The notes below the pieces were generated by a model. That model was not told the origin of the DNA. It saw only the letters and a program-made list of their open reading frames with translations, and ran no database searches. Of a stretch of DNA of 32,169 nt, positions 3,945 through 30,744 are shown one piece after another (the stretch's first letter is position 1; each line of letters starts with the position of its first letter). Source of the DNA: Deltaproteobacteria bacterium (GTDB taxonomy: Bacteria > Desulfobacterota > Desulfobacteria > Desulfobacterales > JAUVGT01); the NCBI GenBank assembly GCA_030593645.1, contig JAUVGT010000002.1, positions 1-32,169 of the forward strand, in the 5' to 3' direction. A program made the position numbers and the translations under genes.

Positions 3945-4145
3945 TTGACGGTTTCGTAAAAAGTCCAACTTCTGCGTTCCGCTGTGTTACGCTGCATTTT
4001 GCAATGATTCAACTCCCCTGTTAAATAAAAAAACAGTTTTAACAGGGCGGGTCCGATAAGTACACTTCATCATTACAAAAATTGCACGCCTTGAATTTGA
4101 ACTCTTTACGAAACCGTCTAATCGGACTTTTTACGAGTTCATCAA
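3945..4145 (-). repeat. Palindromic MITE-like repeat, copy 1 (inverted relative to copies 2 and 3, with a nested hairpin insertion)
   Basis: Reverse complement matches copies at 30745-30899 and 32033-32169; ends TTGACGGTTTCGTAAAAAGTCC / ...CGTAAAAAGTCC inverted; extra ~38 nt CCGCCCTGTTAAAACTGTTTTTTTATTTAACAGGGGAG at the apex. Confidence 0.9.
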
Positions 4146-4354
4146 TATTCGGTATTCAAATCCTCCAATCACCTGTAGGGGTGGATCCCAGATACGCACT
4201 ATTAATTACAGAGATCTGACTCGATGGGAGGTTTCGAAATCACTGTTAACCTTATCACACAATGAACATTCAGCCAAAGTTTTTCACGGTTTGGTGGAAC
4301 CCGGAGGCGCAAAAAACAGTTCAATGGTTATTGCATACTTGACAGCCATTGCAC

Positions 4355-4516
4355 ATGCCGTGGACTAATTTGGATATTGCCTTTTTCTGGTCCGAGATCA
4401 CCCACCGCTGTAGTTTAGATTGCGATTACTGTTACCAGAATAATCTCCCCAATAGTGACAAAGATATTTCTCAACTGGAAAAGAAAATACAGACTCAGGT
4501 TCACCCACGGCCATAG
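4355..4516 (+). pseudogene. Radical SAM protein N-terminal fragment (53 codons)
   Basis: MPWTNLDIAFFWSEITHRCSLDCDYCYQNNLPNSDKDISQLEKKIQTQVHPRP*; CxxxCxxC radical SAM motif then a stop long before a complete barrel. Confidence 0.65.
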
Positions 4517-5045
4517 AAAATCGTAAGGAAAAAGATCTTTGGTTTAAGTGCCGTGAAGATCTTCTAATAGAAAAAATATCTGTTCGGTTCAGTAACTTGA
4601 CCCTGGAAGATGGTTTTAAACGAATTTTATCTCCCATGAATTATAGTTTTATATTTAACAGCAACAGGCAACTCGAAGGAATAGTCATTATAGGTAAAAC
4701 ATCAGGCAAATCGGATATTTCTTCTTCATCCTCGAAAATCATTAAAAATCCGGTAAAGCCGACAACCGGGTCAATGGATACTGCCCAGCGGCAACCTGAT
4801 GCGTCAGGGGTCAAGAAGAATACACACCCGGAGGTGAGGTTAAATCCACTGTTGATAATACCAAAGCATTTACTGTGGTTAAAAACAGTCCACCCCCCGG
4901 AGGAAATAACGATAAAACCCCTCAAGACTTATCAAGCTTTACAATCGTCAAGAATAGTTCGCCCCCAGGCGGTGCAATAAAGAAAACTAAGAAAAAGAAG
5001 TTGAACTTTGTAGTAATTAAAAACAGTCCACCTCCTGGAGAATAG
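4459..5045 (+). pseudogene. STN-like domain protein with C-terminal tandem F-x-V/I-V/I-K-N-S-x-P-P-G-G repeats, interrupted by one frameshift near 4825
   Basis: Frame 1: ...REDLLIEKISVRFSNLTLEDGFKRILSPMNYSFIFNSNRQLEGIVIIGK... up to GVKKNT; other frame: PGGEVKSTVDNTKAFTVVKNSPPPGGNNDKTPQDLSSFTIVKNSSPPGGAIKKTKKKKLNFVVIKNSPPPGE*. A net 1-nt change at ~4825 joins them. True start not identifiable. Confidence 0.6.
4869..5042 (+). repeat. Protein-coding repeat units FTVVKNSPPPGG / FTIVKNSSPPGG / FVVIKNSPPPGE (units at 4869-4904, 4938-4973, 5007-5042)
   Basis: Direct translation in one frame; codons differ at many synonymous positions while the peptide is conserved. Confidence 0.85.
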
Positions 5046-5119
5046 TTAAGTCGGGTGCATTCCCTGCAACAAATTTTCTTACTCCGCCATCGGTCCCCGA
5101 GCCCTTTGGATCCAGATAT

Positions 5120-5701
5120 TTATTTCTCAATCTGCTTTTTGACACTATATAGGATATCTAATACTCTTTCCCGTATTTCCTTGATTTTGGGAGTCACTGC
5201 ACCCTTTACTATCAGTTCCACGGCAAAGTTTCCGATCCAAAGGTCAGGGAGCCACATTCTCTGGCCCATAGAAAACTCTTCATAGCTTGTAAATGAGATA
5301 TAAAGATCGATCCCGTCTTTTTCAGGATAGTATGATATGGTTTTTTCGGGAAAAGGTCTTTTTGCAGGGGACTGGGTTTTTCTTTTTGCGATCTCTTTTT
5401 CATATTCGGGGTTTGGCTTCTGCAAGATATTGTTTTGGTACCAGATGAGTGAAGTTGCGTATATGGCAGCACCCGCATTAAATTTTTTCAAATGCGGATA
5501 CTTTGGCTTAAGCTTTTCTATTTGATTGACAATATCGTTTATAGCTTTTTGCAGATCTTTTTCATCAAGAACTTTTTTTGAGTCCGGTTTCATGGGATCC
5601 TGCAGCTCGCTGGTGTTTGACTCATTGCCTTTGTTTTGCGCCATGACTGCCTCCACGAAGAAGCTGTTGAACATAAGTATGATGAGTAATACATATTTCA
5701 T
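5120..5701 (-). CDS. Hypothetical secreted/periplasmic protein
   Basis: 193 aa with N-terminal signal peptide MKYVLLIILMFNSFFVEAVMAQN; no family recognised. Confidence 0.75.
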   Translation of the reverse strand: MKYVLLIILMFNSFFVEAVMAQNKGNESNTSELQDPMKPDSKKVLDEKDLQKAINDIVNQIEKLKPKYPHLKKFNAGAAIYATSLIWYQNNILQKPNPEYEKEIAKRKTQSPAKRPFPEKTISYYPEKDGIDLYISFTSYEEFSMGQRMWLPDLWIGNFAVELIVKGAVTPKIKEIRERVLDILYSVKKQIEK

Positions 5702-12123: not shown

Positions 12124-14253
12124 ATGACCCTCAACCTGAACGCCATTGGGAAAAAAATCGGCCCGCTGGTTAAAGAATACACATGGAAAGACCCGGTTCT
12201 TTATGCCCTGGGTGTGGGTGCGGGCTTTGATGACCTTGAATATGTCTGGGAAGACGGTCTCAAGGTCATACCGAGTTTTTCCATCGCCAGTATCTTCGAT
12301 TTTCTGGCTGAAACAGCCATAAAGGCAGAAGTGGATCTTTCAGGTATTCTTCACGGGGAACAGGATATAATTTTTCACAACCCCATTCCGCCTGAGGGGA
12401 CACTCACAACAGAAGGCCGGCTTACCGATATCTATGATAAGGGGAAAGACAAAGGCGCCATTGTAATCGCCGAGGCCAACACCTTCCATTTAAACGGTCA
12501 AAAACTCTACACAAATATATTCAAGCTGTTTTGCCGCAAAGACGGCGGTTTCGGCGGCGACCCCGGTCCAAAGGAAACAATAAAAATTCCGGATCGAGAA
12601 CCCGATTATACGGAAAATGCCGTCCCCACCAAAAATCAGCCATTACTCTACAGACTCTCAGGGGATATATTCGCCCTTCATATCGACACCGAATACGCGA
12701 AACAAAGCGGTTTTGAAAGACCAATCATGCACGGACTCTGCACACACGGTTATGCCTGCCGGGCTGTAATCAAACATCTATTCCCGGGAAATCCCGAGCG
12801 TATGAACCGTTTCAGGGTTCGCTTTTCAAAAACGGTTTATCCGGGCACACCCATAAAGACCCAAATTTGGAAAACCGGTGAAAATGAAGCTGTCTTTCGC
12901 ACGATCAATGCGGAAACCCAGGATGTCATCCTCGATCTGGGGAAGGTGGAATGGCTCAGCAGCGGTGAACAGGCGCGAAGAAAAAAACTCGGAGATATAA
13001 ACTTTGACGGGAAAGTCGCAGTGATTACAGGCGCTGGTGCGGGTCTTGGAAAAGCCTATGCCCTGGAACTTTCCAGACGGGGGGCCAAAGTACTGATCAA
13101 CGACCTTGGCGGCGCGCCGGATGGTACAGGATCTTCTTCCTCTGCCGCGGACCTTGCTGTAAAGGAGATTAAAAACACGGGAGGAGAAGCTTCTGCCAGT
13201 TATGATTCCGTGGCCACACCCGAAGGCGGCAGGGCCGTCATTGACAAGGCTGTTAAACTCTGGGGCAGGGTCGACATACTGATTAACAATGCAGGTATTT
13301 TAAGAGACCGGACGCTGGCAAAAATGGAACCCGATACATGGAAGTCTGTAATGGATGTACACCTGAACGGAGCATTTCACGTCACAAAACCGGCATATGT
13401 AAAGATGAAAGAGCAGGGTTACGGCCGCATCGTGTTTACCACATCCGCGGCCGGACTCTACGGCAATTTCGGTCAGTCCAATTATTCATCAGCCAAAATG
13501 GGGCTTATCGGATTAATGAACAGTATTAAAATCGAAGGTGAAAATGCCGGTATTAAGGTGAATACCATTGCCCCGATCGCCGGCACACGGCTCACCAGGG
13601 AAGTCATTCCGCCGGACCTTTTTGAAAAGCTCAAACCCGAGTTCGTGGTACCGATCGTACTGTACCTGTGCTCGGAGCTATGTCCGGTATCGGGAAATGT
13701 TTATAACGCGGGGATGGGATATTTTAATCGGGCAGCCGTGGTTACCGGACCCGGTGCCGTGATCGGTGATGGTCAAACCCCGCCGACTCCTGAAGAGATT
13801 GCTTTAAAAATGGCATCCATCAAATCAATGGATCCGCCCAAAGAATACTTCAATGCCACGTCCGCCCTGTCACCAATGCTGGATGCCTTTAATCCTGAAA
13901 GTATCGATGCGGGTGAAACTGCCGGATGCCCTGAAATCACTGTGGCTGCTATTTTTGAAAAAATGCCGGATGCCTTCCAGCCCGATGCCGCAAAAGGTGT
14001 GGATGCAATATTCCAGTATACCATCAGCGGCCCCAATGGCGGAGAGTGGTATTCTGTAATCAGTAAAGAGAATTGTACGGTTGATCAGGGTAAACATGAA
14101 AACCCCACGACGACCATCAAGATGAACGATGATGATTTTCTGGCATTGATGGGAGGCAAGCTCAACCCCATGACAGCTTATACCAGCGGCAAGCTGAAAA
14201 TTGAGGGCGACATAATAAAATCTCAACTGATTGATAAACTATTTAAGTTCTAG
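12124..14253 (+). CDS. Multifunctional enzyme: MaoC-like enoyl-CoA hydratase 2 + SDR 3-hydroxyacyl-CoA dehydrogenase + SCP2 sterol-carrier domain
   Basis: N-term hot-dog region with YRLSGDIFALHIDTEYAKQSGFERPIMHGLCTHG; SDR GAGAGLGKAYALELSRRGAKVLINDLGG and YSSAK catalytic motif; C-term SCP2 (ISGPNGGEWYSVI...MNDDDFLALMGGKLNPMTAYTSGKLKIEGD). RBS GGAGG upstream. Confidence 0.93.
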   Translation: MTLNLNAIGKKIGPLVKEYTWKDPVLYALGVGAGFDDLEYVWEDGLKVIPSFSIASIFDFLAETAIKAEVDLSGILHGEQDIIFHNPIPPEGTLTTEGRLTDIYDKGKDKGAIVIAEANTFHLNGQKLYTNIFKLFCRKDGGFGGDPGPKETIKIPDREPDYTENAVPTKNQPLLYRLSGDIFALHIDTEYAKQSGFERPIMHGLCTHGYACRAVIKHLFPGNPERMNRFRVRFSKTVYPGTPIKTQIWKTGENEAVFRTINAETQDVILDLGKVEWLSSGEQARRKKLGDINFDGKVAVITGAGAGLGKAYALELSRRGAKVLINDLGGAPDGTGSSSSAADLAVKEIKNTGGEASASYDSVATPEGGRAVIDKAVKLWGRVDILINNAGILRDRTLAKMEPDTWKSVMDVHLNGAFHVTKPAYVKMKEQGYGRIVFTTSAAGLYGNFGQSNYSSAKMGLIGLMNSIKIEGENAGIKVNTIAPIAGTRLTREVIPPDLFEKLKPEFVVPIVLYLCSELCPVSGNVYNAGMGYFNRAAVVTGPGAVIGDGQTPPTPEEIALKMASIKSMDPPKEYFNATSALSPMLDAFNPESIDAGETAGCPEITVAAIFEKMPDAFQPDAAKGVDAIFQYTISGPNGGEWYSVISKENCTVDQGKHENPTTTIKMNDDDFLALMGGKLNPMTAYTSGKLKIEGDIIKSQLIDKLFKF

Positions 14254-14284
14254 AAGTGGATTTATTACAAGGGAGAGTATATCC

Positions 14285-17023
14285 ATGATCGGAATCACAT
14301 CATACGGCGCACATATACCAAAACTCAGGTTAAACCGAATGAGTATTGTAGAAAACATGGGCTGGTTTGCCCCGGCGATTGTAATGGTTGCCCAGGGAGA
14401 GCGTTCCTATTGTAACTGGGACGAAGACAGCCTCACCATGGCCGTTGCCGCGGCAACGGACTGTCTAAAAAATATGGACAAACAATCAGTTGACTCCATA
14501 TTTCTCTGCTCAACAACACTGCCCTTTAACGACCGCCTTAACGCGGGTATTCTTAAAACCGCCCTGAACCTTCATGACCAGGTGTCTGCCGCAGACATCA
14601 CATCTTCTGTTCGTGCCGGTACCATCGGTCTTGTGCAGGCGCTTGAGGTAGTGAAAAACCGGGGAAAAAAACAGGCCCTGGTAGCCGCCACCGATAAACG
14701 AAAAGCCAAAACCGCTTACTTTTATGAAATGTGGTTTGGTGACGGCGCTGCCGCGGTCCTTACCGGACGGGACAATGTCATCGCGGAATATTTGGGTTCT
14801 TATACGGTGACCCATGATTTTGTTGACCATTACCGTGGATCTGACAGCGATTTCGATTACATGTGGGAAGAACGATGGACCCGTGACCAGGGTTACTCAA
14901 ACATTATTCCGGAAGCGGTCAACGGTCTTTTTAACACACTTTCAATGACCATGGATGATGTTGACCATTTTGCCTTTCCCTGTTTTTTTGCTGCCGAACA
15001 CAGCAAAATCGCTGCCAAACTGGGCGCCTCCCCTGAAAAAATCATCAACAATATGCATGATGTGTGCGGTGAAACCGGTGCCGCGCATCCCCTGATGATG
15101 TTAATCACAGCACTGGAAAAAGCATCCCCCGGCGACACAATACTTGCCGCGGGCTTTGGCCAGGGAAGCGACGCGCTGCTCTTTAAAGTAACAGATGCCA
15201 TTAAAGATCTGCCTGAACGAAACGGTGTATCCGGGTGCCTTAAAAACGGTAAAACGGTTTCAAGCTATACAAAATTCCTCAAGTTCCGTGATCTTATTGA
15301 TACAGAAATGGGTATCCGGGCAGAAGCTCCCACCCAGACGGCCATGACCGTGCTCTGGCGAAAACGCGATATGCTCCTGGGCATGGTCGGAGGCCGCTGC
15401 ACTGATTGCGGTACTCCCCAGTTCCCCAAAGCAGATATCTGTATTAACCCTGCCTGTAGAAAAAAAGATACTCAACAGCCCTATGAATTCGCGGATAAAC
15501 CTGCATATGTAAAAAGTTTCACAGGGGATCTTCTGGCCGTATCGGTTGATCCGCCTGCAATATACGGTATGGTGGAATTTGAAGACGGCGGCCGGTACAT
15601 GGCAGATTTTACGGATTGTGAGATGGATGATGTCGCTGTGGGGCAGCCTGTAACCCTTAGCTTCAGAAAGCGCTACGTTGACCGGGAACGCGGGTTCAGC
15701 GGCTATTTCTGGAAAGCGATCCCTGAACCGGGACAAACCGAATCACCGGAATCCGATCAAACCATAAGATTTGACGGCAAGGTGGCTGTGATTACAGGTG
15801 CCGGCGCGGGCCTGGGCAAAGCATACGCCATAGAGCTTTCCAGGCGGGGAGCCAAAGTGCTTGTAAACGACCTCGGCGGATCGACGGATGGAACCGGATC
15901 TTCTTCCAGTTCCGCGGATCTGGTTGTAAAAGAAATCACGGACGCGGGCGGAGAAGCCGCGGCCAATCACGAATCCGTGTCCACACCCGAAGGCGGCAGG
16001 GCAATTATTGATCAGGCTGTTAAGCTCTGGGGCCGGGTCGATATATTGATTAACAATGCGGGTATATTAAGAGACAAAACCCTGGCAAAAATGGAACCGG
16101 ACATGTGGCAGCCTGTTATGGATGTACATCTCAACGGCGCATACCATGTGACACGGCCGGCTTTTATAAAAATGAGGGAACAGGGTTACGGTCGCATCGT
16201 CCTAACCACTTCCGCAGCCGGGCTTTACGGTAATTTCGGGCAAACCAACTACTCATCTGCCAAACTGGGCCTGGTCGGTTTTATGAACACACTTAGAATC
16301 GAAGGTGAAAAAGCAGGGATAAAAATCAACACCATTGCCCCGATCGCGGGGACAAGGCTGACCCGGGATATCATTCCGCCGGATCTTTTTGAAAAGCTCA
16401 GTCCCGAATTTGTAACACCCATGGTCATCTATCTTTGCTCTGAAAAATGCACGGAAACAGGTATTATCGTTAACGCGGGCGGGGGATATTTTAACAGGGC
16501 GGCGATCAGTACCGGTTCCGGCATCGCTGTGGGTGACGGCAAAAAACCGCCTGAACTTGAAGAAATACATCGCAAATGGGAAGACATTAATGATCTCTCA
16601 GACATCAGGGAATATGACGATGTAACAAGTTCTTTGAATCCCATGCTTGAGGCTTTCAATCCTGACAATGAAAAAAAAGCTGGAGTTAAAAATGATTCAT
16701 CAAAACCGACCGTACAAAACATATTCGACAAAATGACTGACATGTTTCAGGAGGAAGCAGCAGAAGGCATCGACGTGGTCTTTCAGTATAACATCAGCGG
16801 TCCCGGAGGCGGAGAATGGTATTCTGTTATTAAAAATCAAACGTGTACCATTCAGGAAGGCACACATGAAACCCCGGATACGGTTATAAAGATGAATGAT
16901 GAAGACTTCATCTCCCTGATGTCAGGCGGTCTTAATCCGATAACCGCCTATACCAGCGGAAAACTGAAAATTGAGGGGGACATCATGAAGTCACAGCTTA
17001 TTGATAAGTTATTTAAATTCTGA
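14285..17023 (+). CDS. HMG-CoA-synthase/thiolase-fold domain + DUF35 zinc-ribbon/OB-fold + SDR dehydrogenase + SCP2 fusion protein
   Basis: MIGITSYGAHIPKLRLNR...; CGETGAAHP and GFGQGSDALLF; zinc ribbon CTDCGTPQFPKADICINPAC; SDR GAGAGLGKAYAIELSRRGAKVLVNDLGG and YSSAK; C-term SCP2. Start set at 14285 behind GGGAG. Confidence 0.9.
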   Translation: MIGITSYGAHIPKLRLNRMSIVENMGWFAPAIVMVAQGERSYCNWDEDSLTMAVAAATDCLKNMDKQSVDSIFLCSTTLPFNDRLNAGILKTALNLHDQVSAADITSSVRAGTIGLVQALEVVKNRGKKQALVAATDKRKAKTAYFYEMWFGDGAAAVLTGRDNVIAEYLGSYTVTHDFVDHYRGSDSDFDYMWEERWTRDQGYSNIIPEAVNGLFNTLSMTMDDVDHFAFPCFFAAEHSKIAAKLGASPEKIINNMHDVCGETGAAHPLMMLITALEKASPGDTILAAGFGQGSDALLFKVTDAIKDLPERNGVSGCLKNGKTVSSYTKFLKFRDLIDTEMGIRAEAPTQTAMTVLWRKRDMLLGMVGGRCTDCGTPQFPKADICINPACRKKDTQQPYEFADKPAYVKSFTGDLLAVSVDPPAIYGMVEFEDGGRYMADFTDCEMDDVAVGQPVTLSFRKRYVDRERGFSGYFWKAIPEPGQTESPESDQTIRFDGKVAVITGAGAGLGKAYAIELSRRGAKVLVNDLGGSTDGTGSSSSSADLVVKEITDAGGEAAANHESVSTPEGGRAIIDQAVKLWGRVDILINNAGILRDKTLAKMEPDMWQPVMDVHLNGAYHVTRPAFIKMREQGYGRIVLTTSAAGLYGNFGQTNYSSAKLGLVGFMNTLRIEGEKAGIKINTIAPIAGTRLTRDIIPPDLFEKLSPEFVTPMVIYLCSEKCTETGIIVNAGGGYFNRAAISTGSGIAVGDGKKPPELEEIHRKWEDINDLSDIREYDDVTSSLNPMLEAFNPDNEKKAGVKNDSSKPTVQNIFDKMTDMFQEEAAEGIDVVFQYNISGPGGGEWYSVIKNQTCTIQEGTHETPDTVIKMNDEDFISLMSGGLNPITAYTSGKLKIEGDIMKSQLIDKLFKF

Positions 17024-29719: not shown

Positions 29720-30229
29720 TCAATCGCGCTTCTTGCTAAATGCTTTCTTTAGGGTAGCAAAAGGTAAAAAAAGCTCAAGCGGGTTATCAGGAAGAGAAAA
29801 AAAACCAAACTGCCCGTAATAAGTTTTTGCCTCTTCCTTTGCATCAACAAAGAAACCGAAAATACCGAGATGTTCGGACACTTTTAGTACGCGTTCAATC
29901 GCGTTTACCAGCATATACTTCCCCAAACCTGTTTTCTGATGTTTTTTACGAACAGCAAGTCTGGCTAGTTTTGCAGCAGGTGCTCGCAAAGGATATTTTT
30001 TTGAATATTTCCGTGGTAATTTATCTACAACTATTTCGCATGAAGACAAGGTAAAATAACCCAGGATTTCAGTCATATTGTTTTCATTCACCAGCACAAA
30101 AGTTCTTGAAATACCTTTTTCCGCATGCTGCCTTGCGGTATTTCTTAGATAACGATTTAAATCATTGTTACCGCAGTCAAAACCTTTCCTGTCATGATGT
30201 TGGGCAAGGGGTTCAATTTTCAGCTTCAT
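29720..30229 (-). CDS. GNAT acetyltransferase, TacT-type toxin
   Basis: MKLKIEPLAQHHDRKGFDCGNNDLNRYLRNTARQHAEKGISRTFVLV...LARLAVRKKHQKTGLGKYMLVNAIERVL; paired with a DUF1778 gene and overlapping it by 17 bp. Confidence 0.92.
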   Translation of the reverse strand: MKLKIEPLAQHHDRKGFDCGNNDLNRYLRNTARQHAEKGISRTFVLVNENNMTEILGYFTLSSCEIVVDKLPRKYSKKYPLRAPAAKLARLAVRKKHQKTGLGKYMLVNAIERVLKVSEHLGIFGFFVDAKEEAKTYYGQFGFFSLPDNPLELFLPFATLKKAFSKKRD

Positions 30230-30500
30230 CGGCTAAACCATCATAAGCTCTAACAGCATTAACCAATTTTTGATTCGGATCCGGTGGGTTTTCAAGTGTA
30301 TCAAAAAACTTCTTTGAAGATTTCTTTGACATGATTATGAAATGGCTGTGCTCGATAACTTTTTGTGCTTTTTCATAAGCGGATTGCACAAGAAACTGGT
30401 TAAGTGTTGAGCCTGTAACTTCAGCCGCTTGTGCCAGTATTTCATAAACCTGCTGAGGGACTCTTGCTGATACACGCTGGTTTTGCTTTTCTAATGCCAT
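30213..30500 (-). CDS. DUF1778-family antitoxin (TacA-like RHH)
   Basis: MALEKQNQRVSARVPQQVYEILAQAAEVTGSTLNQFLVQSAYEKAQKVIEHSHFIIMSKKSSKKFFDTLENPPDPNQKL; start set at ATG 30500 rather than the 30620 ORF start. Confidence 0.92.
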   Translation of the reverse strand: MALEKQNQRVSARVPQQVYEILAQAAEVTGSTLNQFLVQSAYEKAQKVIEHSHFIIMSKKSSKKFFDTLENPPDPNQKLVNAVRAYDGLADEAEN

Positions 30501-30546
30501 AGCTTCCACTCCATAATTAATTTTTCGATCATATTTCTTAGAACTA

Positions 30547-30575
30547 AACATAACAATTTGGCGCCAAAATGGCAA
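30547..30575 (-). promoter_or_regulatory. Putative TA promoter with palindromic operator
   Basis: Minus strand TTGCCA (30575-30570) - N17 - TATGTT (30552-30547); perfect palindrome TTTGGCGCCAAA at 30557-30568 lies inside the spacer. Confidence 0.6.
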
Positions 30576-30744
30576 CAAATTTATTTTCTTCCTGGTATGC
30601 GTGGCAGATGAAAAAGGCATGAGCTATTACGGTGACAAGTCCATTATGAACAAGCTTTCCATGGATCTGAGCACCCTTCAAGATACACGATCAGGCTTGA
30701 TACAAAGTATAGTTTGCCCCGATTTTTTTCAACGGTGTCTATAA

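Follow-up and report, generated by a model that had tools for sequence, protein, structure and literature searches.

A probable decayed gene for a small exported STN protein with proline-glycine tail repeats, and intact Desulfobacterales relatives encoded beside predicted beta-propeller proteins

The window, a 32,169-nucleotide stretch of contig JAUVGT010000002.1 from a deltaproteobacterial genome, carries what is very probably a pseudogene remnant from a family of small exported proteins, here called STN-PPG, in which one STN (secretin N0-like) domain is followed by a repeated proline-glycine tail. The copy in the window matters mainly as a clue, since its intact relatives lie directly behind genes for large exported proteins that end in a predicted beta-propeller, an arrangement suggestive of a new pair of partners in export or surface attachment. 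Our best overall explanation, to which we assign a probability of about 0.35, is that the window holds the relic of an STN-PPG protein that was paired with propeller proteins and acted as an N0-type adaptor.

STN stretch and tail repeats of the window copy

In a three-frame translation of positions 4201-5046, frame 1 contains the STN-like stretch and frame 3 contains the repeats. Positions 4522-4764 of the plus strand encode the second half of an STN domain together with the start of the linker, a piece that matches the family profile (E=2e-21) as well as Pfam STN (PF07660; E=7e-5, 23.0 bits, below the gathering score of 28.4). Its aligned part is 44% identical to the intact protein of genome G037. 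The first-pass annotation, which had proposed an STN/secretin-N-like stretch upstream of the repeats, is thus borne out, with a Pfam match of sub-gathering strength. Three repeat units follow on the plus strand, FTVVKNSPPPGG (4869-4904), FTIVKNSSPPGG (4938-4973) and FVVIKNSPPPGE (5007-5042), and a stop codon (5043-5045) stands directly after the third. Each unit comprises 12 residues, and the starts are 69 bases apart both times, giving an exact 23-residue period; the annotation had placed the units, the STN stretch and the stop correctly, and the spacers that it gave as 22 and 11 residues are 11 and 11. Comparison of the frame 1 and frame 3 translations locates a degenerate fourth unit at 4806-4836 (plus strand), at the frame change as had been supposed, with the switch itself near 4815-4835.

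The tail peptide of the window copy was formerly under selection, because the differences among its units are mostly synonymous. In the three unit pairs the proportions of differing sites are 0.93, 0.45 and 0.98 at synonymous positions and 0.09, 0.15 and 0.24 at non-synonymous positions, in agreement with the earlier remark that codons vary while the peptide is kept. Moreover, 5000 shuffles of the tail residues never yielded three such motifs (0/5000). A recent DNA-level duplication of the repeats was rejected, the units being only 58-78% identical in DNA and their changes mostly synonymous. The first-pass annotation had stated that the family idea would fail if homologues were lacking, or if the units were recent duplications confined to one genome; homologues were found in other genomes.

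Intact relatives, their propeller neighbours and a possible role

A first search returned genes in genomes G037 and G076, and a profile built from both was then used to scan 391 genomes of the order. The scan found further members, including an intact paralogue on contig C106 of the window's own genome; a search at class level covered the same 391 genomes. The five intact genes come from five different families of the Desulfobacterales and share one architecture, in which a hydrophobic segment at the N-terminus is followed by one STN domain and a proline-glycine tail. The hydrophobic segment is likely a signal peptide, and no lipobox cysteine was found at its end in any of the five proteins. 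One further genome from each of the G076 and G037 families was searched, and no STN-PPG gene was found there.

The tail sequence is highly variable between genera: the strict KN..PPG motif is present in four of the five genes, and G320, devoid of the KN motif, has only looser PP-x-G units. The G037 tail contains the units FKAIRNAPLPGG, FKVFKNRPPPGG and FRIIRNSSPG, the G192 tail LRITRNVTIPGY, LTVRKNVSPPPGF and EKKVESPPG, and the C106 tail four units ending in PPGA or PPGD; in G076 the tail reads FKIKRNMPPPGG and is cut soon after by the contig end. In the window the repeats recur every 23 residues; the intervals are 23 and 26 residues in G037, 23 and 24 in G192, and approximately 20 in C106. 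The search for a widespread KN-x-PPPGG peptide family was negative. Across 85,462 species genomes, a collection in which the window's own record is possibly not included, the pattern F-x-[VI]-x-[KR]-N-x-PPPGG is rare: it occurs in 16 stretches, two of them in STN proteins of genomes already found and the remainder single, chance-like matches. It had no match in phage or plasmid records, and the papers searched contained no description of an STN-PPG protein or of the propeller domain.

The intact protein is 192 aa long, with STN as the sole domain found and no secretin channel; the G037 protein scores 25.8 bits against PF07660, under the gathering score. In structure models, which were based on two- and three-sequence alignments, the G037 STN domain reaches a pLDDT of 75-89, and the tail, mostly below pLDDT 50, is predicted to be disordered. 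The structures nearest to the STN model are PilQ N0 and the signalling domains of FpvA and PupB. Of these, PilQ N0 is the top fold match (probability 0.97, E=0.016), in keeping with an STN/N0 fold, and PilQ is also the best solved sequence match (E=0.006). As a separate observation, small exported STN proteins with many kinds of tail (ankyrin, coiled-coil-like, acidic proline-rich and basic) occur in about 75 of the 391 genomes (L022-L098), representing stand-alone STN domains with swappable arms.

At each of the five intact loci, the gene immediately upstream of the STN gene, on the same strand and separated from it by 40-180 bases, encodes a large exported protein that terminates in DFGxxGLYxYDGxxW repeats; one or more proteins of this type are encoded ahead of it. 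These repeats, usually eight (seven to nine) and about 35-39 residues each, are predicted to form a closed ring of eight four-stranded blades (pLDDT 90, pTM 0.81), a beta-propeller by prediction only, and the structures nearest to the model all contain propellers. The repeat domain had no match in Pfam, in NCBIfam or in a PDB sequence search. It is mostly C-terminal, in proteins whose other parts are subtilase, trypsin-like (an assignment based on the sequence of L054 and, for its fragment, a weak Pfam match), C45 hydrolase, FG-GAP, NosD/beta-helix or unknown. Within the order it was detected in 14 of the 391 genomes, in five cases by weak fragments only, and a phylum sample of 336 added one further genome; most genomes that have the domain carry several copies.

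The neighbour table comprised 36 rows, namely the five intact genes, 30 other small STN genes and the window relic. None of the 30 other genes had a propeller-gene neighbour within the 1.5 kb examined on each side, and a lone PPG was present in three of them. The chance that the five neighbour-bearing genes would be exactly the five PPG-tail genes is 1 in 324,632 if the 35 genes are taken as independent, which they are not fully, though the five intact ones span five families; the association rests on n=5. The profile used for the table included the five genes themselves, and the initial profile contained two genes only, the other three having been found via their sequence and not via their neighbour. 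One intact locus is cut by a contig end, and the C106 locus contains a masked stretch. Altogether, we consider that the pairing is probably functional. The dependence is nevertheless one-sided, because genomes G011, G069, G092 and G156 have propeller proteins and no detectable STN-PPG gene, so that propeller proteins are not always in need of it. In G069 (L142, L143), at least six exported proteins with the propeller tag are even encoded one after another, again with no STN-PPG gene.

By analogy with a Xanthomonas N0 protein that carries a partner-binding arm (PMC3093366), we tentatively propose that STN-PPG proteins could work as adaptors. In the periplasm, the N0-type domain would provide an anchor, either through self-association or through attachment to an outer-membrane complex. 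The tail repeats would form a flexible, multivalent arm for holding or guiding propeller-tagged proteins en route to, or at, the cell surface. The architecture, the gene pairing and the decay of the window copy are directly supported, and the folds are supported by prediction; export, co-transcription of the pair, binding of the tail to the propeller and the place of action are inferred. Several observations weigh against the adaptor proposal: the four genomes with propeller proteins and no detectable STN-PPG gene, the strong variation of the tail between genera, including the G320 tail without KN motif, and the presence of secretins in all genomes checked, which therefore do not single out an N0 anchor. 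Exosortase genes are likewise uninformative as a distinguishing feature.

It is also conceivable, though less likely than not, that the tail binds peptidoglycan or polysaccharide, or is only an extended basic spacer, and that the protein is a general envelope component which is co-expressed with propeller proteins and polysaccharide genes and makes no contact with the propeller. The tails are indeed basic and proline-rich, with a K+R to D+E count of 10 to 3 in the window and 14 to 6 in G037, and at the three loci with enough context (G037, G192 and G320) the pair stands beside polysaccharide genes, among them flippase, glycosyltransferase, O-antigen ligase or carbamoyltransferase genes. However, these polysaccharide genes differ between loci, whereas the propeller gene is paired at all five, and the F-x-V-x-[KR]-N-x-PPPGG core, which is repeated and has changed mostly synonymously, would be superfluous in a mere spacer.

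A signalling role of the kind known from TonB-dependent transducers and FecR-type regulators, in which the STN domain would report on an outer-membrane partner and the tail would contact a regulator of the propeller proteins, appears improbable. The fold matches to the FpvA and PupB signalling domains and a weak FecR_C similarity (E=0.026) point in that direction, but no sigma factor, FecR-like regulator or TonB-dependent receptor was seen beside the intact genes, and the model shows neither a barrel nor a second membrane segment.

Returning to the adaptor proposal, a wider and more speculative version, which we regard as rather unlikely, is an undescribed, polysaccharide-linked sorting system of Desulfobacterales. 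In such a system the eight-bladed C-terminal propeller would be a common export or surface-attachment tag of many secreted enzymes, recognised by a single-copy N0-type adaptor with a repeated PPPGG arm, and the window would hold a decayed second adaptor copy. If the pairing is functional, it offers a handle on how some sulfate reducers export or display proteases and other enzymes, through one C-terminal propeller common to many kinds of protein and one small partner. It would also mean that stand-alone N0/STN domains have swappable arms, making arm-specific partnering testable.

Breaks in the window copy and the radical SAM junction

The profile match of the window copy begins at model position 55 of 203, with neither the export segment nor the first half of the STN domain present; the copy therefore lacks a complete STN domain and is broken at the gene start as well as mid-gene. 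Immediately upstream, positions 4335-4494 (plus strand) are the 5' part of a truncated radical SAM gene, lying outside the STN gene and fused to the relic. They share 81% DNA identity with positions 877-1036 of contig C367 (locus L184) in the same genome, where the radical SAM gene is intact (432 aa). The identity ends at 4494, shortly upstream of the start of the STN fragment, and the two fragments were probably joined by deletion or recombination. The missing first half, the broken frame and the junction with another gene are the grounds on which we read the window copy as a relic.

The fragmented state of the assembly (446 contigs, 79% complete) might instead suggest a working gene whose breaks are assembly or sequencing errors. 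This is very improbable given two independent faults, the join to the 5' end of another gene, the absence of a propeller gene from the window and the intact paralogue on contig C106 of the same genome.

The first-pass annotation had raised the idea that the tail serves a maturase as a multi-core substrate, and had pointed to the adjacent radical SAM fragment. Taken as a ribosomal peptide natural product with a radical SAM maturase, this reading has the short repeated cores and the adjoining fragment in its favour. The intact radical SAM copy on another contig of the genome nevertheless marks the neighbour as a junction scar; the radical SAM family was not found in G037, G076, G192 and G320, and the maturase idea is left unsupported. 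No such gene lies beside any of the five intact STN loci, nor an STN gene near the intact radical SAM gene on C367, and the sole CxxxCxxC gene in the intact loci is a B12-type radical SAM gene five genes away, inside a polysaccharide cluster. With no conserved maturase adjacent to the intact genes, whose products are larger and combine a hydrophobic segment at the N-terminus with a folded STN domain, the maturase reading is scarcely credible, and a docking or scaffold tail, the other option of the annotation, is favoured over it.

Upstream of the junction, at positions 3945-4145, lies a repeat of the type TTTCGTAAAAAGTCCAACTTCTG...GAACTCTTTACGAAACC, of which similar copies are found near the ends of C367 (89% over 90 bases) and C106 in the same genome; this dispersed sequence is probably a small element of mobile or MITE-like character. 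Just downstream of the relic, on the minus strand, positions 5120-5701 encode an exported-looking protein of 193 aa with no Pfam or NCBIfam match. Farther along are two overlapping large fused genes (12124-14253 and 14231-17023), one combining a MaoC/MFE-2 hydratase, a short-chain dehydrogenase and SCP2, the other an ACP-synthase-III-like part, a ChsH2-type OB domain, a short-chain dehydrogenase and SCP2, a domain content resembling peroxisomal multifunctional enzyme 2. At 29720-30620 (minus strand) a TacA-type antitoxin gene adjoins a GNAT acetyltransferase gene, likely a TacAT-type toxin-antitoxin pair. No Rfam family was found in the window.

Comparison with known systems

The STN-PPG domain shares its beta-alpha-beta-beta-alpha type and its probable export with the N0/STN domains found in secretins such as PilQ and GspD and in TonB-dependent transducers such as FpvA and PupB. 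Unlike in those proteins, it stands alone with a repeat tail and is accompanied by neither channel nor barrel; the plug and barrel that follow STN in a TonB-dependent transducer are replaced by a predicted disordered end. It differs from the members of PF07660 in that its Pfam score stays below the gathering score.

In the type IV secretion system of Xanthomonas, the flexible arm of a small N0 protein, VirB7 (XAC2622), binds a partner as well as neighbouring N0 domains (PMC3093366). VirB7 and DotD of Legionella type IV secretion are small proteins with an N0 domain and a disordered arm, which is also the predicted make-up of STN-PPG. In these two the arm is at the other end, whereas the STN-PPG arm is repeated and the protein lacks the lipobox cysteine; furthermore, type IV secretion genes were not seen beside STN-PPG genes.

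C-terminal sorting modules of exported proteins are known from type IX secretion, with its C-terminal domains, and from PEP-CTERM. Unlike these, the candidate module described here is an entire predicted propeller that neither Pfam nor NCBIfam recognises. As with type IX and PEP-CTERM modules, the propeller is a single C-terminal module borne by many unrelated exported proteins per genome, and the proteins that carry it are often encoded near polysaccharide genes.
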